NCBI RefSeq assembly: GCF_902832885.1
Contig: NZ_CADFDK010000001.1
Span: forward strand, 806,001-870,000
Direction of reading: 5' to 3'
Origin: Burkholderia seminalis DSM 23518
GTDB lineage: Bacteria > Pseudomonadota > Gammaproteobacteria > Burkholderiales > Burkholderiaceae
Length of the DNA stretch: 64,000 nt
Positions 7,626-53,943 of the stretch are shown piece after piece; within the stretch, counting starts at the first letter, position 1, and every line of letters begins with the position of its first letter. The notes beneath the pieces were generated by a model. The model ran no database searches. It saw only the letters and a list, made by a program, of their open reading frames with translations, and was not told the origin of the DNA. The position numbers and the translations under genes were made by a program.

Positions 7626-8342
7626 TCAGGCGCGCACGGGCACGTCGACCGAGAAATCGCGCGAAATTTCGTCGGCGCTGAAATCGATCAGCGCGAGCGA
7701 CGCCGCCTCGGCCTCGCGCGGGTCGCGCCGCTCGATCGCATCGACGACGCGCGCATGCGCCTTCACCGCGATCTCGTGCGCCCCTTCCTTCTGCACGACG
7801 CGCGGGTTCACGAGGCGCACCGCACCGCGCACGATCGCCGCCATCTGCTGGAAGAACTGGTTGCCGCTGGCCTGGACGATCCGCGTATGCAGCAACTCGT
7901 CCGCCGTGTCGTAGCCGGAATCCCCCGGCTGCAGCACCTTGAACGCATCGAACGCTTCGCGAATGCCCGCGATGTCGGTCGCCGTCGCACGCACCGCCGC
8001 CTGCGCGGTCGCACGTGGCTCGATCAGCATCCGAAACTCGATGACGTCGCGCATGAATTGCGGGTCGGGTTTCGCCCGAAATCGCCAGCTCACGACGTCT
8101 TCGTCGATCATGCGCCAGTCGCGCATCGGGCGCACACGCGTGCCGACTTTCGGGCGCACGTCGAGCATGTCGCGCGCAAGCAACATCGACAATGCTTCCC
8201 GCATCACCGTACGACTCACATCGAACTCTTTCGACAGCACGTCTTGCGGCGGCAAGATGCCGCCATACTTGTCCTCGACGATACCCGAGACAAGCCCATC
8301 CATCACTTTGGCGACCAGTGACCGGTCTTTGCCCTGCTCCAT
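7626..8342 (-). CDS. FadR/GntR-family transcriptional regulator (FCD domain)
   Basis: The 238-residue protein has an N-terminal winged helix (residues 8-72, with ILPPQDVLSKEFDVSRTVMREAL) and a C-terminal all-helical FCD effector domain with the metal-binding Asp/His pattern (ADELLHTRIV, VKAHARVVDAIERRD). The segment GTRVRPMRDWRMIDEDVVSWR resembles DgoR-like regulators of sugar-acid catabolism, so a sugar-acid ligand is plausible but inferred. A strong GGAGG site precedes the ATG. It ends 102 bases before the oxidoreductase on the same strand. Confidence 0.9.
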   Translation of the reverse strand: MEQGKDRSLVAKVMDGLVSGIVEDKYGGILPPQDVLSKEFDVSRTVMREALSMLLARDMLDVRPKVGTRVRPMRDWRMIDEDVVSWRFRAKPDPQFMRDVIEFRMLIEPRATAQAAVRATATDIAGIREAFDAFKVLQPGDSGYDTADELLHTRIVQASGNQFFQQMAAIVRGAVRLVNPRVVQKEGAHEIAVKAHARVVDAIERRDPREAEAASLALIDFSADEISRDFSVDVPVRA

Positions 8343-8508
8343 GACACCTCCCCGTGCGTCGATTTGCGAACACCTGCTCCGCAGTTCCGCCGGCCCTGGT
8401 TACCACTGTTCTTATGATCTATAAGTTGATGAGTTCGACGATATTCCGCTATCTGGTAAACACCTGACAGGGTTATCCCTCTTTTTTGACGAGGTGATTT
8501 ATACGGCT

Positions 8509-8546
8509 AAAAAAAAAGCCCGGGAAGCGCGCTGCGCTTGCCGGGC
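8509..8546 (-). terminator. Terminator downstream of rpiA
   Basis: Read on the minus strand, GCCCGGCAAGCGC and GCGCTTCCCGGGC form a stem with a three-base loop, followed directly by nine T residues. The rest of the 280-base gap (8343-8622) holds the upstream region of the FadR-type gene and no recognisable gene. Confidence 0.88.
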
Positions 8547-8622
8547 CCCGATTTCCACAAGATTTAAACCTTCAGTCCATTAATGATCGACAACGCCGTT
8601 ACGGACTGCTTCTCATTCAGGT

Positions 8623-9318
8623 TCAGCCAGCCGGATAAACGATCGTTTCAACGCCGTTTTCCGTGCCAAGCAAGCACAGATTCGCGCCGCGCCCGGCGAA
8701 CAGGCCGACCGTCACGACGCCCGGCCATGCATTCACCTGCGCTTCGAAACCGCGCGGATCGGCGATCTGCAGCCCCTTCACGTCGATGATCTCGTTGCCG
8801 TTGTCGGTGATGTACGGTGCGCCGTCCTTCGTCACGCGCAGCACGGGCACGCCGCCGAGCGCGGCGACGCGCCGGCCGATCGCCGTGCGCGCCATCGGCA
8901 CGACCTCGATCGGGAGCGGGAACGCGCCGAGCACCGGCACGCGCTTGCTGCCGTCCGCGATGCAGACGAACGTGTCGGCCACCGACGCGACGATCTTCTC
9001 GCGCGTCAGCGCGCCGCCACCGCCCTTGATCATCGCGCCGCTCGCGTCGATCTCGTCGGCGCCGTCGACGTACACCTGCAGCGAGTCGACCTCGTTCAGG
9101 TCGAACACCTTGATGCCGTGCGCTTTCAGGCGCTCGGTCGTCGCGACCGAGCTCGATACGGCGCCGCGATAGCGCGACTTGACGACGGCGAGCGCGTCGA
9201 TGAAGCAGTTGGCGGTCGAGCCGGTGCCGACGCCGATCACGGCGCCTTGCGGCACGTTCTGGATCACGTAGTCGGCGGCGGCCTGGCCGACGAGGCGTTT
9301 GAGTTCGTCTTGAGTCAT
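8623..9318 (-). CDS. rpiA: Ribose-5-phosphate isomerase A
   Basis: RpiA interconverts ribose-5-phosphate and ribulose-5-phosphate in the non-oxidative pentose phosphate pathway. The product is 231 residues, the family norm, beginning [12 protein letters not shown]. Active-site blocks are [22 protein letters not shown] and [13 protein letters not shown], holding the catalytic Asp, Glu and Lys of the family. A longer reading frame continues upstream, but only this ATG gives the conserved N-terminus. Confidence 0.97.
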
Positions 9319-9409
9319 GGCGTGGTAATGCTGCGGGATTGCGAAAAACCGCCAGTTTACCGGAGTCGGGGGACGGCCCGTGTTTTTCGGCGTGCGACGC
9401 GCCGCGTGT

Positions 9410-10282
9410 TCACGGTGCGCCGGACGCGGGGGCGTCATCCGCCGGCTGCGTGCCGGGGAAGTACTTGTCGAGCAACGCCTGTGCGATCGCGTCGGTTTCG
9501 GCGTCCGGATTGCCTGCATAGTCGGACGGCCGGAAATGCATCTGGAACGCGGCGAACACGCGCCGCGTGCGCACATCGAGCATTCCGTCGGTCGGCACGT
9601 CGTAGCCGTAGCGGGCGAGCTTGAGCTGCAGTTCACGCACGTCGACCGGCGCGCGCGGGTCGCGGCCGCCGAGCCGCGCGACCACGGTCGCCCCGTCCGG
9701 CCACGCGCCGACACCGGCCTGCGCCAGCGCATGCCACGGGAACAGCGGCCCCGGATCGATCTTGCGTTGCGGCGCGATGTCGCTGTGCCCGACCACGCGT
9801 GTCGGCGGGATGCCGTAGCGCGCGACGATGTCCTTCGACAGGTCGATCAATGCGACGACCTGCTCGGGGGGATACGGCTGCCAGGTGCGATTCTGCGGAT
9901 CGAGCGGGCCGCGGTTCACGTTCTCGATGCCGATCGACACCGCGTTCAGCTCGGTCGTGCCTTGCCATTCACTCACGCCCGCGTGCCAGGCGCGCTGCGC
10001 TTCCGGCACGAGCTGATAGACGACGGGCATCCCGCGCTCGATGCGCGGCTGCGGCGGGACGACGTAATGCACGCTGACCGAATCGCCCGTCAGCGTGCGC
10101 AACGACTTCGCCTCGTCGCTTTCGGTGTAGTGCATCACGAGAAAGCGAACCCGCGAATCGGCGCCGCGCGCATGCAGGCTCGTGTCGGCGTAGTAGGTCC
10201 CGCGTTCGACGAGCGACGGCGACGTGCAGGCCGCCAGCAGGCACAGCACGGCGCAGGAGGCGCCAACACGGAGCAGGGTCAT
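9410..10282 (-). CDS. N-acetylmuramoyl-L-alanine amidase lipoprotein (AmiD-like)
   Basis: The 290-residue protein starts [20 protein letters not shown], a lipoprotein signal with lipobox LAAC, implying outer-membrane anchoring. An Amidase_2 zinc domain follows: ligand His in FLVMHYT, IGIENVN, and the His/Asp ligands in [18 protein letters not shown]-terminal peptidoglycan-binding domain covers the last ~90 residues ([15 protein letters not shown]...). Such enzymes cleave anhydro- or intact muropeptide amide bonds in the periplasm. The ATG at 10282 is chosen because the lipobox follows directly. Confidence 0.93.
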
Positions 10283-34300: not shown

Positions 34301-37517
<3,217 letters not shown>

Positions 37518-46819: not shown

Positions 46820-46990
46820 TTATGCCGCCGGCAACTTGCTCGCGATGTAGCTGAACGCCCCCGAGATGCCACCCGTCAGCGTGGACATGGCACTGACGAG
46901 AGCGACTGCGATAAGTCCGGCAATGAGTCCATACTCGACTGCGGTAACCCCGTTTTCTTCCGAAAGGAAACGCTTGATGATTGCTTTCAT
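46820..46990 (-). CDS. flp: Flp-type pilin subunit
   Basis: The 56-residue pilin has a short basic leader ending ENG, cleavage before VTAVEYGLIAGLIAV with Glu at +5 and Tyr at +6 (the EY pair marks Flp pilins), then a hydrophobic helix. It is the main fibre subunit and the first gene of the leftward Tad operon. The frame extends upstream, but only the ATG at 46990 gives a normal leader. Confidence 0.95.
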   Translation of the reverse strand: MKAIIKRFLSEENGVTAVEYGLIAGLIAVALVSAMSTLTGGISGAFSYIASKLPAA

Positions 46991-47667
46991 TTTATTCCTC
47001 GTGCCTGTATTTACGTTTTCTGGCCTTTTATACGTATACGTCCCCGCATATCTGGCCGCTTTGCCCCGCTCGTTCGCCACATCTGCTGCAACGACAACCG
47101 GGTGCGCTTTCTTTATAGGTCGCCCCGAAGGGCATTGCTCACAATTTGATGCAAGTTAACATTCGCGATAGTGACCCTCCTCGAACGTTGTGTACCGAAC
47201 CGTACATTTGCTTACATCTGCTCCGGATTCTATATCCGATCCTATTTAAGTTCCAACCTCTTTTAACGACTCTGTCGGAAAAAATCTTCAGGAGCACAGC
47301 GTATTTGTACGGCGTTTCGGTACGACTTACACATAGGATTTACGATAGGTTAGATGTGCACGCCTAATCCACCAGTAAAACAATTGCCTCGTCCATCAAG
47401 CTCGCTCGCCACCCACGTTACGCCGCACGCGTAACGCCAATGTTGTGACGTTACGTTACGAAACGGCCGAAACCGTTCTCATTCATCTGCACTTAAACAG
47501 ATTCAACAATCTTTCAATCTCCTCGACTTCCTTTCCCGACAAGGAATTGCGTCGTTTAAAACCGGTTGTAGACCTGCCGGGCATCGAAATGGCACGACAG
47601 TTGCAGAGTAGTCCTCGCACCACTCAACACAACGCAGTTCACAACACATTTTTAATGCGAGGAAGAA
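46991..47667. other. Divergent intergenic region between flp and the lipoprotein cassette
   Basis: This 677-base stretch has no convincing gene and is much more AT-rich than its surroundings. It must hold the promoter of the leftward flp operon, for which no clear sigma-70 or sigma-54 boxes were found, and the rightward sigma-54 promoter at 47590-47605. A dyad CGTTACG-N7-CGTAACG lies at 47416-47436, and a direct repeat of CGTTACG at 47449-47460. Possible activator sites for the sigma-54 promoter may be among these. Confidence 0.8.
47590..47605 (+). promoter_or_regulatory. Sigma-54 (RpoN) promoter for the lipoprotein cassette
   Basis: TGGCACGACAGTTGCA matches the consensus TGGCAC-N5-TTGCW at all conserved bases, with GG and GC ten bases apart. 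The expected start site is about 47616, giving a ~52-base leader before the ATG at 47668, which has AGGAAG before it. Confidence 0.85.
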
Positions 47668-49359
47668 ATGGACATCAAGGTTATCCCTCATGGCGTGTTC
47701 CGGACGACTCTGATCGCGGCCACCGTTGCAGCCATGCTTTCCCTCTCCGCGTGCGGCGGTTCCGGTTCGATCAGCCAGGGGCTCGGCGGCGGCTCGAGCT
47801 CGGGCGGCGGTGACACGATCTCGACGTCGGGTGGCGGCAGCTCCGGCACGAGCGGCACCTCGGGCACGAGCGGTACCTCCGGCACCAGCGGAACCTCGGG
47901 CACGAGCGGTACCTCCGGCACCAGCGGCACCTCGGGCACGAGCGGCACCTCCGGTACCAGCGGAACCTCGGGCACGAGCGGTACGTCGGGCACGTCGGGC
48001 ACGTCGGGTGTGTCGTCGAACGCGGTGGGACAGGTCCTCGCAAGCAGCAGCAATATCGTCACGGGTGTCGGCAGTACCGTCTCCGGTCTCGGCTCGGTCA
48101 TCGGCAGCCAGTCGCTGCCGGGCGTCAACCCGGCCACCACGCAAGCCGCAGGCGGCATCGTGCAAAGCGTCGGCGGCGCGGTGACCGCACTCGGCAACGG
48201 CCTCGGCAACGGTCTCGGCCAGCTCGGCGCAACGAAGGATCCGCTCGGCACCACGCTCGCCAGCACGGGAGGCGTCGTCAACCAGCTGGGCGGCGCAGTC
48301 ACGGACACCGGCAAACTGGTCACGAGCCTCGGCAGCGGCCCGCTGTCGCCACTCGCACCGGTCACGGGTGCCGTCGGCGGCCTCGTGTCGACGCTCGGCG
48401 GCGCCGTATCGAACGGCGGCACGACCCTCACCAATGCGCTGTCGACCGGCCCGATCCAGCAAGTCACGCAGACGGTCAGCTCGGCCATCACGCCGATCAC
48501 GACGATGGTCGGCCAGACGACCCAGACGATCGGCACGGCCACCGGCCTCGGCGCACCGGTCAACACGCTGCTCGGCACGATCGGCAACGGGCTGAACCAG
48601 GCCGGCGCACTGCTCGCGTCGACGGGCGGCAATCCGGTCACGACAGGCCTCGGCAACACCGTCTCGGCGACGGGCAATACCGTGAAGGCCGTCGGCGGCC
48701 TGCTCACGGGCGGCACCGGCGGCGTGACCAACCCGCTCGCCCCGCTCACGGGCCTCGTCTCCACGGTTACCGGCGCACTCGGCGGCGCAACGGGTGGCGG
48801 CAGCGGCCCGCTCGCACCGGTCACCGGCCTCGTCTCCACGGTCACCGGCGCACTCGGCGGTGCAACGGGTGGCGGCAGCGGCCCGCTCGCACCGGTTACC
48901 GGCCTCGTCTCCACGGTCACCGGCGCACTCGGCGGTGCAACGGGTGGCGGCAGCGGCCCGCTCGCACCGGTTACCGGCCTCGTCTCCACGGTCACCGGCG
49001 CACTCGGCGGCGCAGCAGGCGGCGGCAGCGGCCCGCTCGCACCGGTTACCGGTCTCGTCTCGACGGTCACGGGTGCGCTCGGCGGTGCAACGGGCGGAAC
49101 GAGCGGCGGTCCGCTCGCCCCGGTCACGGGTCTCCTCGGTGCAGTCACGGGTGCGCTTGGCGGCGTGGCCGGCAGCGCAGGCGGCAGCAGCCCGCTCGCC
49201 CCGGTGACGAATGCCGTCTCGACGGTCACCAGTTCGGTCGGCGTACCGGCACTGAGCGGCGGCACGGGTGCGGTCACGAACTCGGGCTCGTCGTCGAACC
49301 CGCTCGCGCCTGTCACGTCGCTGATCGGCGGCCTGCTCGGCGGCACGCACGGCAAGTAA
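47668..49359 (+). CDS. Low-complexity collagen-like repeat lipoprotein 1
   Basis: The 563-residue protein has a lipoprotein signal with lipobox LSAC (Cys near residue 29). Residues ~60-113 are 18 consecutive Gly-Thr-Ser triplets, which is why such proteins are annotated as collagen-like. The rest is Val/Thr/Gly/Ser-rich with many STV-G-L units and a C-terminal block of 25-residue repeats ([19 protein letters not shown]). Proline is too scarce for a classical collagen helix. It is predicted to be surface or periplasm exposed. Function unknown; first gene of a cassette with a paralogue and a TpsB-type transporter, behind a sigma-54 promoter. Confidence 0.85.
47845..48006 (+). repeat. Nine-base tandem repeats encoding Gly-Thr-Ser
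   Basis: 18 in-frame nine-base units, GGNACSNSN-like with codon-level variation (serine as AGC or TCN). The number may vary between strains by slipped-strand replication without frameshift. Confidence 0.9.
48731..49160 (+). repeat. 75-base tandem repeats in the lipoprotein 1 gene
   Basis: Copies start (at the GPLAP codons) near 48731, 48806, 48881, 48956, 49031 and, with a 3-base longer step, 49109. Each encodes 25 residues. The central copies are almost identical in DNA, so recent duplication or gene conversion is likely. Confidence 0.92.
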
Positions 49360-49399
49360 TCCGACATCCATTCATCGAAAAGACAGCGAGGAGTCCATC

Positions 49400-50824
49400 A
49401 TGTCCCAGCAACGTTCCATCACGACGGCCGCCCTGCGCCAGTGGCGTGCGCCCCTCACCGCCTTCGCCGCGGCCTGCCTGCTGGCCGCGTGCGGCGGCGG
49501 CGGCGTCAGCTCGCCGCCGAGCAGCAGCAATAACAACAACAATCCGAGCACGAGCGGCACGTCCGGCACCAGCGGCACCAGTGGCTCGTCCACCGGCACC
49601 AAGGGTGTCGTCAGCACGGTCGGCCAGACGGCCAGCGACCTCGGCAGCACGGTCGGCAACATCAGCCTGCCGGGCCTCGGCGACGGCGTGACGAAGGGTG
49701 TCGGCAGCACGCTGTCCAGCACCGGCACGATCATCGGTGCGGCCGCCGATGCCGTGAGCAACGGGCTGGGACAGATCGGCTCGACGAAGGATCCGGTCGG
49801 CACGACGGTTGCCGGCCTCGGCAATGTCGTCGGCGCGACGAGCAACACGGTGTCCGGCCTGAGCTCGACGGTCAAGGCGCTCGGCACGGGTCCGCTCGCG
49901 CCGCTCGCCCCCGTCACGACGCCGGTCGGCACCGTGCTCGACACGGTCGCCAACGGCCTGACGGCCGCCGGCACGACGATCGGCTCGACGCTGTCGTCGG
50001 GCGCCGTCCAGCAGGTCACGCAACCGATCAGCTCGGCGATCACGCCGCTCGTGATCACGGCCGGCCAGGTCACGCAACAGGTCGGCACGACGACCGGCCT
50101 CGGCCAACCCGTCTCCGGCCTGCTCGGCCAGATCGGCGGCGCGATCAGCTCGGCGGGCAAGCAAGTCGGCGGCACGTCGAGCCAGCCGCTCGTCGGCGAC
50201 GTCGGTCAACTCGTGACCGCGGTCGGCAACACGGTGACCAACACGGGCGGCCTCGTCAACCCGAACGGCCCGAACGGCGCCGCACCGATCCCCGGCCTGA
50301 TCACGAGCCTCGTCGGCGGCTCGACGGCGACCGTCCAGAACGGCACGTCGTCGGGTTCCGGCTCGACGAACCCGCTCGGCGGCCTGCTGTCCGGTCTCGG
50401 CTCGACGCCGCTGGGCTCGCTCACGGGCGCAATCGGCGGCGCAACCGGCGGCTCGGGCAGCGGCCCGCTCGCGCCTGTCACGGGCCTCGTGTCGACGGTC
50501 ACCGGCGCACTGGGCGGCGCGGCAGGCGGCAGCGGCGGCCCGCTCTCCCCCGTCACGAATCTCGTGTCGACGGTCACCGGCACGCTCGGTGGCGCAACGG
50601 GCGGCGCAGGCAGTGCAAACCCTCTCGCGCCCGTCACCGGTTTGCTGAATACTGTCACCGGAGCAGTGGGCGGTGCAGCAGGATCGGGTGGTGCGAGCCC
50701 GCTCGCGCCGGTCACGTCGCTGGTCGGCAGTGTCACGGGTACGGCATCGTCGGGCAGCGGTTCGACGGGCCTGCTGGCACCGGTAACGGGGTTGCTTGGC
50801 ACGCTGGGTAGCGTTGGCAAGTAA
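49400..50824 (+). CDS. Low-complexity collagen-like repeat lipoprotein 2 (paralogue)
   Basis: The 474-residue protein has lipobox LAAC (Cys near residue 31), a Ser/Asn-rich linker with short Gly-Thr-Ser units, and a body much like lipoprotein 1: shared LGQ-GSTKDP-GTT, ISSAITP, TTGLGQPV blocks and C-terminal [18 protein letters not shown]-like repeats. It probably arose by duplication. GAGGAG precedes the ATG, 40 bases after the first gene. No known function. Confidence 0.85.
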   Translation: MSQQRSITTAALRQWRAPLTAFAAACLLAACGGGGVSSPPSSSNNNNNPSTSGTSGTSGTSGSSTGTKGVVSTVGQTASDLGSTVGNISLPGLGDGVTKGVGSTLSSTGTIIGAAADAVSNGLGQIGSTKDPVGTTVAGLGNVVGATSNTVSGLSSTVKALGTGPLAPLAPVTTPVGTVLDTVANGLTAAGTTIGSTLSSGAVQQVTQPISSAITPLVITAGQVTQQVGTTTGLGQPVSGLLGQIGGAISSAGKQVGGTSSQPLVGDVGQLVTAVGNTVTNTGGLVNPNGPNGAAPIPGLITSLVGGSTATVQNGTSSGSGSTNPLGGLLSGLGSTPLGSLTGAIGGATGGSGSGPLAPVTGLVSTVTGALGGAAGGSGGPLSPVTNLVSTVTGTLGGATGGAGSANPLAPVTGLLNTVTGAVGGAAGSGGASPLAPVTSLVGSVTGTASSGSGSTGLLAPVTGLLGTLGSVGK

Positions 50825-50895
50825 GGACGACGGTCGCACCATCGCAGCCGGAGCGAATGGCGCGGTCGTACATACACAACCGGCATGGCGGCACG

Positions 50896-50925
50896 CGGCG
50901 CGCGACACCCTGGTGTCGCGCGCCG
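50896..50925 (+). other. Strong intergenic hairpin before the TpsB-type gene
   Basis: CGGCGCGCGACACC and GGTGTCGCGCGCCG form a perfect 14-base-pair stem with a two-base centre. No T tract follows, so a simple terminator is unlikely. It could be an RNA processing or stability element, or an attenuator lowering transporter expression relative to the lipoproteins. Confidence 0.7.
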
Positions 50926-50968
50926 GCATTACAAAGAAGACGAAAAGCAAGGCCTACGAGGAAGAACA

Positions 50969-52657
50969 ATGAAATCCAGACTCGACAGATGGATGATGAT
51001 GCTGCTCGCCGTCACGGCGGCAAGCACGGCACATGCACAATCGCGCGTCGGCGGTAACCCGCTCGACTCCCTTCCGCAGATCAACGCACCGAAGACCGGC
51101 CCGAACGTTACCGTGCAGGTCGCACCGCAAGCGCCGCAACTGCAGGAGCTACTGTCGCGCCACCTGACGCCGTCGACGTTTCAGGTCGAAGGCGTGAAGT
51201 CGGTGCCGTTCGAGGAAATCTCGCGTCGCTTCACGCCCCTCGTCGGCAAGGACATCACGATCGGCGACCTGATCGAAACCGCGAACGGCGTGACGAAGCT
51301 GTACCAGGAGCGCGGCTACGCGCTGTCGTTCGCGTTCGTTCCCGCGCAGACGTTCGAGAACGGCGTCGTGCGCATCACGGTAGTCGAAGGCTACGTGTCG
51401 GACGTCAAGGTCACCGGCAAGCCCGGTGCGATGGAACCGAAGATCCGCGCGATCGCCGCGCACATCACCGACGATCGCCCGCTGCGCCGCGCGACGTTCG
51501 AGCGCTACGTCAACACGTTCGGCCTGCTGCCCGGCCTCACGGTGAAGGCGAACGTCCCGCCGCCGCAAACCACCGACGGCGCCACGACGCTCGAACTCGC
51601 GGTCGACCGCAAGCCGTTCAACGTCAGCACCGGCATCGACTTCAACCACCCGGGCGTCCAGGGCCTGATCACCGCGACCGAAAACGGCCTCACGCGATTC
51701 GGCGAGCAGCTGAGCATCTCGGCGCTCGCGCCGCCGGGACGCGACAAGCAGACCTACTTCGCGTTCAGCGGCGCGGTGCCCGTCGGCAGCAGCGGCCTGA
51801 TCACGCGCCTCGATGCAAGTACGTATCGCGGCAAGCCGACCGACAATCCGGGGTTGCCGTCGTACGTGCAGCGTACGGTCAAGAACGAGAAGCTTGGTCT
51901 TTCGGCATCCTATCCGATCTTGTTGAATAATCAGCGCAGCCTGCTCGGCACCGTGTCGGGCTACGCATCGCACAACGAGGATCGCTACCAGAACCAGATC
52001 AACGGTGCGAGCCTCGATACGCGCTCGCAGGTCCGCGTGCTGCAGATGCAGCTCGACTACACGAGCGTCCAGCCGAAGCAGGTCCAAAAGCTGAGCGTCA
52101 ACGTCGCGAAGGGTTTCAACATTCTCGGCGCGTCGAAGTCGCAGGACATCACCGTCGGCACGACAACGACCTCGGTGGACAGCCCGATTTCGCTGACCTT
52201 CGTTCGCACGGGGGCGACTTTCACGCAAACCAACGAATGGCCGTTCCGAATCGGCACATCGGTTTCGCTGACCGGTCAATACAGTCCCGACTCGCTGCCA
52301 ACGTCCGAACAGATCTCGTTCGGCTCGACGCGCTACGCGCTCGGTTATCAGCCTGGCGAAGCGTCAGGTGACTCGGGCTGGGGGATGTCGCTGGAGGTCA
52401 ATCGCGGCTTCACGCCGGGCTGGACGTATCTGAAATCGATCACGCCGTACGTCGCCTACGACATGGCGCGCGTATACCTGCATTCGGGCACGCCGTCACC
52501 AAACCGCATGTCGTCGGTCGGCATCGGCGTGCGATTCACGGACAGCCGCTTCTACAGTCTCGACCTGAACATCGCGAAGCCGATCGGCGACGCACCCGTC
52601 GAAAGCGCGTCGCGCAGCCCGCGCATCAACGCGGCCTTCTCGTATCAGCTCAACTGA
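50969..52657 (+). CDS. ShlB/FhaC/HecB (TpsB) family outer-membrane transporter
   Basis: The 562-residue protein has a signal peptide (cut near AHAQ, residue ~23), two POTRA-like domains (residues ~50-215, e.g. FQVEGVKSVPFEEISRRFT and GYVSDVKVTGKPG), and a 16-strand-type barrel. The L6 region has the SGDSGWGMSLE block of FhaC, but the VRGF/Y tetrad of that loop reads TRYA. TpsB proteins pass one large TpsA exoprotein; none is encoded nearby. GAGGAAG precedes the ATG at 50969; the upstream frame is not used. The cargo may be one of the lipoproteins. Confidence 0.88.
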   Translation: MKSRLDRWMMMLLAVTAASTAHAQSRVGGNPLDSLPQINAPKTGPNVTVQVAPQAPQLQELLSRHLTPSTFQVEGVKSVPFEEISRRFTPLVGKDITIGDLIETANGVTKLYQERGYALSFAFVPAQTFENGVVRITVVEGYVSDVKVTGKPGAMEPKIRAIAAHITDDRPLRRATFERYVNTFGLLPGLTVKANVPPPQTTDGATTLELAVDRKPFNVSTGIDFNHPGVQGLITATENGLTRFGEQLSISALAPPGRDKQTYFAFSGAVPVGSSGLITRLDASTYRGKPTDNPGLPSYVQRTVKNEKLGLSASYPILLNNQRSLLGTVSGYASHNEDRYQNQINGASLDTRSQVRVLQMQLDYTSVQPKQVQKLSVNVAKGFNILGASKSQDITVGTTTTSVDSPISLTFVRTGATFTQTNEWPFRIGTSVSLTGQYSPDSLPTSEQISFGSTRYALGYQPGEASGDSGWGMSLEVNRGFTPGWTYLKSITPYVAYDMARVYLHSGTPSPNRMSSVGIGVRFTDSRFYSLDLNIAKPIGDAPVESASRSPRINAAFSYQLN

Positions 52658-52666
52658 TCGGACACC

Positions 52667-52693
52667 AAACAGCCCGCTTCACGCGGGCTGTTT
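52667..52693 (+). terminator. Terminator after the TpsB-type gene
   Basis: AAACAGCCCGC and GCGGGCTGTTT pair around TTCAC, ten bases after the stop. It closes the three-gene cassette. Confidence 0.88.
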
Positions 52694-52822
52694 CGATTAG
52701 AGTCCCCTCTATCAAACGTGGCACGCGGTTTCACGTATTCTGGCGAAGCTCGCAACATGCCCGCCCCATGCAGACGGTCGTGCGGGCGAATGAACACGAC
52801 ATGCAAAACAAGGAGGATGACA

Positions 52823-53284
52823 ATGATTCAACTGACTCGCCCGTTGCGTGCAATCGCCGTTGCCGGTGCACTGCTCGCCTGCGCAGCCCCCACGTTCGCA
52901 CAGGCCGACAGCCCCATCGGCATGTGGCAGACGATCGACGACAACACCCATCAGCCGAAGGCACTCGTGCAGATCGCCGAAGACGGCGACGGTGCGCTGA
53001 CGGGCAAGGTCGTCAAGGGCCTCGGCGCGAACGATACGCCCGATCGCCGCTGCACCGCCTGCACGGACGAGCGCAAGGATCAGCTCATCAAGGGCATGAC
53101 GATCATCAAGGCGATGAAGAAGGAAGGCGACCACTGGGACGGCGGCAACATCCTCGACCCGGAAAACGGCAAGGTCTACAAGTGCAAGATGACGCTTGAA
53201 GACGGCGGCCAGAAACTCGTGGTGCGCGGTTACATCGGCGTATCGCTGCTCGGCCGGTCGCAGACCTGGGTTCGCCAGCAATAA
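52823..53284 (+). CDS. DUF2147 domain exported protein
   Basis: The 153-residue protein has a signal peptide (cut near FAQA, residue ~27) and a DUF2147 fold: GMWQTIDDNTHQPKALVQI, DRRCTACTDERKDQ, LVVRGYIGVSLLGRSQTWVR. It is a small periplasmic beta-barrel-like protein of unknown role. The ATG at 52823 leaves a six-base gap to AGGAGG, whereas the ATG at 52817 abuts it. Confidence 0.85.
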   Translation: MIQLTRPLRAIAVAGALLACAAPTFAQADSPIGMWQTIDDNTHQPKALVQIAEDGDGALTGKVVKGLGANDTPDRRCTACTDERKDQLIKGMTIIKAMKKEGDHWDGGNILDPENGKVYKCKMTLEDGGQKLVVRGYIGVSLLGRSQTWVRQQ

Positions 53285-53387: not shown

Positions 53388-53798
53388 TCACGCCGCATGC
53401 TTCAGCGAGTCGGGCGCGTAGGAGCCCGGTGTGCGATACGCGGGTACCGCATTGCTACGCGCCTCCGCCGCCTTCGATTGCGTGTGCTTGCGCATCCGTG
53501 CGGACAATTCATTGCACAGATTCACGCCCGAATCGCCGTAGAGTTCACGCATCACGTTCAACAGCGTGCCCGTCTCGTGCCAGACCTTGAAGCGGCGATG
53601 GCAAGTTTGATACGACGGGTAACGGCGCGGTATGGCAGACCACGTTGCGCCGCTGTAGATCACCCAAAGCACGCCGTTCAGGACGGCGCGCGTATTGGCT
53701 AACGGACGACCGCGCAACTCGGTGCGCGGCTGCATTTCGGGCAGAAGCGGCGCAACACAGCGCCACTCGTGGTCGGTCAGATCGCGATACGGTGTCAT
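53388..53798 (-). CDS. IS5-type transposase N-terminal domain protein, no DDE domain
   Basis: The 136-residue protein begins PYRDLTDHEWRCVAPLLPEM and continues with the DUF4096/IS5 helix-turn-helix region (ANTRAVLNGVLWVIYSGATW, PSYQTCHRRFKVWHETGTL). After ~100 residues it diverges to a basic, Ala-rich end with no catalytic DDE motifs. No terminal inverted repeats were seen. It is either an IS remnant or a domesticated DNA-binding protein. The ATG at 53798 has GGAG at good distance. Confidence 0.75.
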   Translation of the reverse strand: MTPYRDLTDHEWRCVAPLLPEMQPRTELRGRPLANTRAVLNGVLWVIYSGATWSAIPRRYPSYQTCHRRFKVWHETGTLLNVMRELYGDSGVNLCNELSARMRKHTQSKAAEARSNAVPAYRTPGSYAPDSLKHAA

Positions 53799-53943
53799 GG
53801 ACATCTCCAGCCTTGGTAACCATGACACAACGATATCGGCTCACCTCAACGATGAATATAAGACAAATCCGAAAATACCCCGAGATTGCGCGAATTTGAC
53901 CGGAATTGACGTTTGAATCCCGTCGATTACCCGGACGACGCAA

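Follow-up and report, generated by a model that had tools for sequence, protein, structure and literature searches.

A 64,000-nucleotide stretch of the Burkholderia seminalis DSM 23518 genome (hereafter the window; contig NZ_CADFDK010000001.1, positions 806,001 to 870,000) carries a cassette of two genes for collagen-like lipoproteins (clp1 and clp2) and one gene for an outer-membrane transporter of the TpsB family (tpsB). The order clp1-clp2-tpsB is a conserved genetic unit, and the genetic pairing of TpsB with collagen-like lipoproteins is established by the comparisons presented below; transport is predicted. The cassette itself has already been published, and the new result is the lipoprotein-TpsB pairing, which extends far beyond Burkholderia. 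To our knowledge, TpsB transporters have been described as devoted to substrates that carry a TPS domain. We propose that the cassette probably represents a variant of two-partner secretion that is dedicated to lipoproteins, with export predicted by comparative genomics, and the pairing suggests an undescribed route that places collagen-like lipoproteins on the cell surface.

Conserved pairing of TpsB with collagen-like lipoproteins

The original prediction for this DNA, made from its sequence, had described a sigma-54 promoter, two paralogous lipoproteins, and an FhaC-like transporter. Each of these was confirmed, by an exact promoter element (see below), by two proteins that match the same Pfam family, and by matches to POTRA_2 and ShlB. 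CLP1 (47668..49359, + strand, 563 amino acids) and CLP2 (49400..50824, + strand, 474 amino acids) both match PF15984 (Collagen_mid) above the cut-off, with E values of 2.2e-67 and 2.4e-63, respectively. They are homologues of BCAL1524 and BCAL1523 and are members of the Bcc-CLP family (PF15984; BCAL1523, BCAL1524, BCAL2397, BCAM0695, and BCAM1598). The two proteins are 49% identical, and both carry lipoboxes (LSAC and LAAC, each followed by Gly) and low-complexity GXX repeats. Their earlier description as low-complexity repeat lipoproteins was accurate regarding paralogy and lipoprotein character, but it had missed a named family with published Burkholderia members.

The transporter gene (50969..52657, + strand, 562 amino acids) is a homologue of BCAL1522. 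Its product matches POTRA_2 (E = 8e-21, 74.1 bits) and ShlB (E = 3e-20, 73.5 bits) above the cut-off, and a Pfam search at E values up to 1 listed these two families and one match below the cut-off. The best relatives of solved structure matched by the family profile are CdiB and FhaC, the latter along residues 87-542 (E = 1e-10). Identity of the transporter in named loci reaches 98%, with 96% in B. cenocepacia, and judging by its closest kin the window belongs to the B. cepacia complex.

The original prediction had proposed that joint conservation of the three genes be examined, and the triad is present in 33 of the 33 Burkholderia loci for which upstream DNA is available. This count includes locus L045, where the second lipoprotein is split across two reading frames (8555-9589 and 9084-9848), and leaves out L028, which is cut at a contig end. 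Beyond this genus, PF15984 matches above the cut-off were found in 10 of 300 genomes of the order and in 12 of 299 genomes drawn from the phylum, with seven genomes common to both sets. The total is 15 different genomes, including the source genome, from 10 genera and five families. Collagen_mid above the cut-off is rare, and no match was found in 14 control genomes. Matches below the cut-off were dropped from these counts (G057; G306, G352, G414, G466, and G559). A hidden Markov model built from only two Collagen_mid rows missed a copy on contig C2 of the source genome (L101) that PF15984 finds.

All 15 Collagen_mid genomes have a tpsB gene that is on the same strand as a Collagen_mid gene and no more than 2.5 kb away from it, as judged from the window itself and from a search with a profile whose rows all come from Burkholderia. 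In two of them (G118 and G192), the Collagen_mid gene and tpsB are separated by one more gene for a repeat protein. The region from G192 (L103, 6682-12652) has one transporter gene beside three repeat lipoprotein genes on the same strand, one of which encodes Collagen_mid and a linker of the PDNPGG type. Besides the window, 24 Collagen_mid regions were recovered, 14 of which are paired with tpsB. Named carriers of the pair include Cupriavidus metallidurans CH34, Caballeronia insecticola, and Cupriavidus campinensis. In the soil strain CH34 (L115), two Collagen_mid genes, tpsB, and Tad genes are all adjacent. TpsB matches occur in 37 plasmid records, four of which were examined. Sampling of genomes is uneven and the genomes are related, so these counts do not represent independent events.

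In CLP1, the lipobox is followed by GTS repeats, the Collagen_mid domain, and PLAPVTG repeats of approximately 25 residues. These GTS repeats correspond to what is described for BCAL1524 and BCAL1523 as the GXX repeats of Bcc-CLP proteins (PMC10224339). The lipobox Cys and the next two Gly residues are invariant in all 26 aligned rows, and 35 of 36 listed Collagen_mid or repeat proteins, whether paired or unpaired, conform to a loose lipobox pattern. The exception is the second protein of L102, and proteins from L091, L101, L108, and L117 were not on this list. The N-terminal linker consists of GTS, GGT, TP, NGN, or PDNPGG runs in different relatives, and because its sequence differs in this way, the comparison suggests that length and flexibility of the linker may matter more than its sequence. 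Neither CLP1 nor CLP2 matches the Gly-X-Y repeats of PF01391 (Pfam Collagen) at E values up to 1; a distant partner lipoprotein (L151, 5412-7127) does match this family. An AlphaFold2 model of CLP1 computed from alignment A3 (26 rows) has a mean predicted local distance difference test score (pLDDT) of 58.8, a modest confidence that informs only on rough domain layout. Values are under 50 up to residue 117, followed by helices at 119-346 (Collagen_mid) and then by short strands in the 25-residue repeats. A Foldseek comparison of this model with the Protein Data Bank gave no matches at E values up to 0.001.

Transporter relatives and candidate cargo

The association was also examined in the reverse direction. 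A TpsB profile (A2) constructed from 14 such transporters was used to search the 300 genomes of the order, and the ten matches of at least 766 bits fall in the same ten genomes that carry Collagen_mid, with the next score at 500 bits. This agreement arises partly by construction because the top ten, or their near kin, are rows of the profile. Therefore, the informative rows are those outside A2. Three of these (G024, G071, and G177, 488-500 bits) adjoin genes for repeat-rich lipoproteins, one of which matches PF01391, and no PF15984 match was found in the lipoproteins beside these transporters. In G177 (L151), three lipoproteins of the repeat kind are encoded near the transporter, and GPTGAT repeats of one of them account for the match to Pfam Collagen. 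Lipoproteins of L149 and L150 have Asp after the likely lipobox Cys (LIGC followed by Asp). Asp in this position is the classical inner-membrane retention residue in Escherichia coli, although the rules may differ in these bacteria. Matches in the order with scores of 234 bits or less were mostly assessed for the TpsB match alone.

A prospective test with A2 on 370 genomes of the class yielded eleven matches besides the source genome, with scores of 189-379 bits. The two that exceed 300 bits (G705, 379 bits; G869, 348 bits) belong to further families that are absent from the profile, and both adjoin a gene for a Collagen_mid lipoprotein (E = 7e-44 and 9e-16). Among the nine matches of 274 bits or less, two (L167 and L169) adjoin a TpsA with a TPS domain, and a third (L174) has as its neighbor a small lipoprotein of GATG repeats that matches no Pfam family. 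A contig end truncates L166, and the remaining neighborhoods in this group were judged by eye only. Transporters with the two types of partner are therefore distinguished by their profile scores in this data set, albeit with small numbers.

A tree of 33 TpsB rows is consistent with this separation. One branch, with support of 100/100 and a length of 0.92, sets apart a clade that comprises 16 rows linked to Collagen_mid, three rows linked to repeat lipoproteins, and G155 from 13 other rows, which include the four other TpsB proteins of the source genome. The root was placed at the midpoint for drawing only, and the placement of G155, which has a long branch, is unsure. G356 (L108), L117, G138 (L155), and all matches from the 370 class genomes were left out of the tree. 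In L117 (Cupriavidus campinensis), the transporter is spread over two overlapping reading frames (7917-9131 and 8984-9592) and looks interrupted in the record. A different kind of lone TpsB occurs on Azospirillum lipoferum AZO_p3 (L118, 7833-9545), where a single gene of the ShlB family adjoins an adenylate/guanylate cyclase gene and no TpsA is annotated in the stretch shown.

The original prediction had claimed that no cognate TpsA is nearby and had proposed a search for a remote one. In agreement with the claim, no PF05860 (TPS domain) match exists in the 64-kb window, and no TpsA with this domain was found as a partner of the transporter. Ordinary two-partner secretion by way of a remotely encoded TpsA might still be considered, given that the source genome (7.97 Mb) has four TPS-domain places and that 13 of the 17 genomes with the transporter encode TPS-domain proteins elsewhere. 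However, the four places in the source genome are on contigs C7, C1, and C31, each of which carries another TpsB, and the only one on the contig of the window is approximately 360 kb away. Furthermore, whole-genome searches found no PF05860 match in four of the 17 genomes (G118, G192, G220, and G177, which are 99-100% complete). The first three of these carry Collagen_mid pairs and G177 carries the repeat-lipoprotein kin. In G118, G192, and G177, the lipoprotein-linked transporter is also the sole match to ShlB. On these grounds we rejected a remote TpsA as the cargo and regard this explanation as extremely improbable.

The lipoproteins as clients of TpsB are the most economical account because of the linkage, the co-occurrence, the prospective test, and the lack of a TpsA. 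The original prediction had suggested that the lipoproteins may be partnered with the transporter, and the comparative evidence favors this view, namely the pairing in 15 of 15 genomes, the prospective test, the separate clade, and the four of 17 genomes in which no TPS domain was found. Alternatively, the CLPs could be periplasmic accessories of a TpsB that has another secreted cargo, similar to BcpO in some BcpA systems. BcpO is an accessory in some Burkholderia contact-dependent growth inhibition loci and is a lipoprotein or cytoplasmic depending on the species (PMC5422565). Some loci also encode an additional repeat protein that lacks a lipobox (L102, 10172-11008; L164, 6442-7419). An accessory role nevertheless appears unlikely, given the four genomes in which no TPS domain was found. 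In addition, no third gene recurs across families in the regions read, where most neighbors are known as open reading frames only, and the one to three lipoprotein copies per locus would be expected of cargo rather than of a fixed accessory.

The original prediction had also drawn attention to the lack of the usual VRGF/Y tetrad in the transporter. In FhaC, R450 of (V/I)RG(Y/F) and D492 form a salt bridge that locks the L6 loop (PMC4490367). The window and all 15 aligned Burkholderia rows have ALGY at this position, in place of (V/I)RG(Y/F), and Burkholderiales transporters linked to Collagen_mid have ALGY, AQGY, GLGY, GLAY, or AMGY. However, GRGY is found in family f54, which has a Collagen_mid partner, and in G705 and G869, and rows linked to repeat lipoproteins have GRAY or GRAF. 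The observation thus holds for the window but fails as a diagnostic trait, and we rejected loss of VRGF/Y as a hallmark of lipoprotein-linked TpsB proteins. In these alignments, the L6 arginine is lost or kept by lineage and is not a marker of a lipoprotein partner.

The altered lid-lock motif could instead indicate that the barrel is an insertase, an assembly platform, or a plugged pore, and that the lipoproteins stay in the periplasm. BamA-type relatives in the Omp85 superfamily do assemble rather than secrete proteins (PMC4104836). We give this explanation little credence because the domain make-up and the best relatives of solved structure (CdiB and FhaC) are those of translocases, and because BCAL1524 affects cell-cell aggregation (PMC10303873).

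Promoter, candidate activator, and the Tad cluster

The promoter element TGGCACGACAGTTGCA at 47590-47605 (+ strand) is the sole zero-mismatch match to the consensus TGGCACGN4TTGCW in the window, with the GG and GC of the -24/-12 element at the set spacing of sigma-54 promoters. When as many as two mismatches are allowed, the number of matches does not exceed chance (nine found versus a mean of 12.2 in shuffled sequences), and therefore the weight rests on the exactness, position, and conservation of the element. It precedes CLP1 in 33 of the 33 Burkholderia loci with upstream DNA, 28 times exactly and five times with one mismatch. Across both strands of these loci (0.71 Mb), the CLP1 promoter position accounts for all 28 exact matches. 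A promoter match arising by chance was rejected. A sigma-70 scan of the + strand upstream of CLP1 found nothing.

Farther upstream, a palindrome (CGTTACG-N7-CGTAACG, 47416..47436) ends 153 nucleotides before the -24 element and is followed by more CGTTACG half-sites. The palindrome, with a spacer of 6-7 nucleotides, is kept in 31 of the 33 Burkholderia loci and in the window; L023 has a spacer of 6, and one arm is missing in L044 and L045. The entire source genome has two copies, compared with none for a reversed control. The only other copy found is on contig C4 (538074-538092, L163). Based on its sequence and position, the palindrome is a candidate enhancer site for an activator.

Sigma-54-like elements (up to two mismatches, fixed GG and GC) also precede Collagen_mid genes of other genera and some unpaired copies (L087, L088, L089, L090, L092, L093, L097, L098, L099, L100, L103, L115, and L116). 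No such element was found before the Collagen_mid genes of L094, L096, L102, L106, L107, L109, and L110, and L104 has only an element with three mismatches. Several relatives also have upstream clusters of five-base half-sites of the palindrome. Such half-sites are expected by chance once per 450 bases, and therefore only L087, L088, L092, L099, and L115 speak for a shared site.

A candidate activator of the CLP1 promoter is encoded at 34301..35779 (- strand), although this link is a prediction. The protein has the AAA+ domain of sigma-54-dependent activators (PF00158, E = 7e-62) and a Fis-type helix-turn-helix (PF02954, E = 2.2e-11), and it is below the cut-off of NCBIfam families (best 25 of 28). 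On another replicon, a sigma-54 activator gene likewise adjoins a Collagen_mid gene that is unpaired (L098, 7521-8651). Parts of the BCAL1524 gene cluster are reported to respond to CepR (PMC2753556).

The candidate activator closes a Tad pilus cluster that is divergent from the cassette. Components of this cluster are on the - strand, begin with the Flp pilin gene (46820..46990), and extend down to approximately 35.7 kb. The original prediction had considered the cassette to be tied to the Tad pilus, and TpsB together with the lipoproteins could conceivably serve the Flp pilus by anchoring, decorating, or tuning it. This possibility fits the adjacent Tad cluster, the activator gene at its end, and the presence of Tad genes near 11 of the 14 paired regions from the genome draws and in three of three records from named species. 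Likewise, BCAL1520, BCAL1523, and BCAL1524 are induced together with Flp genes on contact with epithelial membrane vesicles (PMC7970998). However, no Tad gene was detected within the 18-20 kb examined around the pairs in L106-L108 or around the repeat-lipoprotein kin in L149-L151, in blastp searches with the Tad proteins of the window at E values up to 1e-8 that could miss very distant homologues. The association is therefore frequent but not general, and a role as a pilus accessory is improbable. Because the Tad link is frequent but was not detected in six regions, it more likely reflects shared regulation and a shared purpose in adhesion than a shared mechanism.

Proposed export route and relationship to known systems

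If the lipoproteins are clients of TpsB, the following route can be envisioned. A sigma-54 RNA polymerase and a presumed enhancer-binding activator would transcribe clp1-clp2-tpsB from the conserved promoter and candidate enhancer sequences. The collagen-like proteins would then pass through Sec, become lipidated at the lipobox Cys, and be delivered to the outer membrane by Lol, a path predicted from the lipobox and from the residue that follows its Cys. Where other TpsB proteins engage a TPS domain, the POTRA domains of this one might bind the lipoprotein in its unfolded state, and its barrel would pass the polypeptide outward. Finally, the lipid or the long, flexible linker at the N terminus would hold the protein at the surface, where it could act as an adhesin or aggregation factor. 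BCAL1524 has been found in outer-membrane vesicles, and its deletion lowers autoaggregation and attenuates the strain in an insect model, with both phenotypes restored by complementation (PMC10303873).

Several points weigh against export of the lipoproteins by TpsB. Vesicle localization of BCAL1524 does not prove surface exposure, no role for this protein in biofilm formation was seen in the account given in PMC10303873, and BCAL1522 is missing from the list of contact-induced genes in the relevant passage of PMC7970998. Ten Collagen_mid regions are unpaired (L089, L091, L093, L094, L096, L097, L098, L100, L101, and L105), although L091 and L105 are at contig ends. Every one of these regions is in a genome that also has a paired copy, and therefore the unpaired proteins would have to rely on a transporter acting in trans or on a different route. 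The transporter of G155 (366 bits) falls in the lipoprotein-linked clade and has no evident partner; a DUF3443 lipoprotein is encoded approximately 5 kb from it. The TPS-domain proteins elsewhere in 13 of the 17 genomes and the missing lid-lock arginine in the window and most Burkholderiales rows belong on the same side. An AlphaFold2 model of TpsB from a shallow alignment (A1, 15 Burkholderia rows) had a pLDDT of 32.9, too low to inform on an N-terminal H1 plug helix or a 16-stranded barrel, and was not used. More generally, the proposed transport, binding, and surface localization are predictions from comparative genomics.

The cassette resembles type Vb systems (FhaC/FHA, CdiB/CdiA, and HxuB/HxuA) in having POTRA_2 and a ShlB barrel and in having a candidate cargo gene that adjoins the transporter gene. 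It differs in that the candidate cargo lacks a TPS domain and is instead a collagen-like, lipidated protein, and in that the L6 tetrad is altered in the window and in most Burkholderiales rows. Slam proteins are dedicated outer-membrane barrels that bring lipoproteins to the surface. TpsB would work similarly if the CLPs are its clients, but it belongs to the POTRA_2/ShlB family instead. Bucl8 shares collagen-like repeats in Burkholderia and a predicted lipoprotein character, but it carries efflux outer-membrane domains, and the main text of the paper that describes it includes no mention of PF15984, Collagen_mid, hemolysin, two-partner, or FhaC (PMC4565658). The Bcc-CLP paper, whose scope is the Burkholderia cepacia complex (Bcc), describes the same neighborhood as a possible operon in B. 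cenocepacia J2315 and lists BCAL1522 as an exported protein related to heme utilization and a possible operon member. Its main text does not contain "hemolysin" or "sigma-54", and its passages on this neighborhood propose no secretion partner (PMC10224339). Among the matches listed from open-access PubMed Central, a search that did not cover subscription journals or preprints, we found no paper that joins TpsB with collagen-like lipoproteins.

A broader proposal, which we consider about evenly balanced, is that a separate type Vb branch spans several families, in which TpsB proteins carry lipidated, largely disordered collagen-like adhesins that are recognized without a TPS domain and retained on the surface by their own lipid, such that the rule linking TpsB to a TpsA with a TPS domain is not universal. 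If true, a transporter clade tied to lipoproteins would separate the mechanism of the barrel from recognition of the TPS domain. It would also provide a Gram-negative route for lipoproteins to the surface outside Slam, and supply a missing transporter for the collagen-like adhesins found in Burkholderia, Cupriavidus, and other bacteria.

The downstream boundary of the cassette is less clear than had been claimed. A strong terminator-like hairpin follows tpsB (52669..52691, + strand; -23.8 kcal/mol and a fold z score of -5.2 for 52655-52705), as the original prediction had noted. However, only three U residues are located behind this hairpin, it is absent from the output of a terminator consensus scan, and a gene for a DUF2147 protein lies beyond it (52823..53284, + strand; PF09917, E = 3.9e-32). 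The latter is a BCAL1520 homologue, and BCAL1524-1520 have been treated as one putative operon (PMC2753556; PMC10224339). Therefore, the end of the transcription unit at 52693 is uncertain, and the unit may run on into the DUF2147 gene. A DUF2147 gene is present in only three of the 45 regions scanned (L092, L095, and L099), and on this basis we rejected its product as the cargo of the transporter. Beyond the cassette is a gene or gene fragment for an IS4/5-type transposase (DUF4096; 53388-53828, - strand), and a transposase gene (bcal1519) likewise flanks the B. cenocepacia J2315 locus (PMC10224339).

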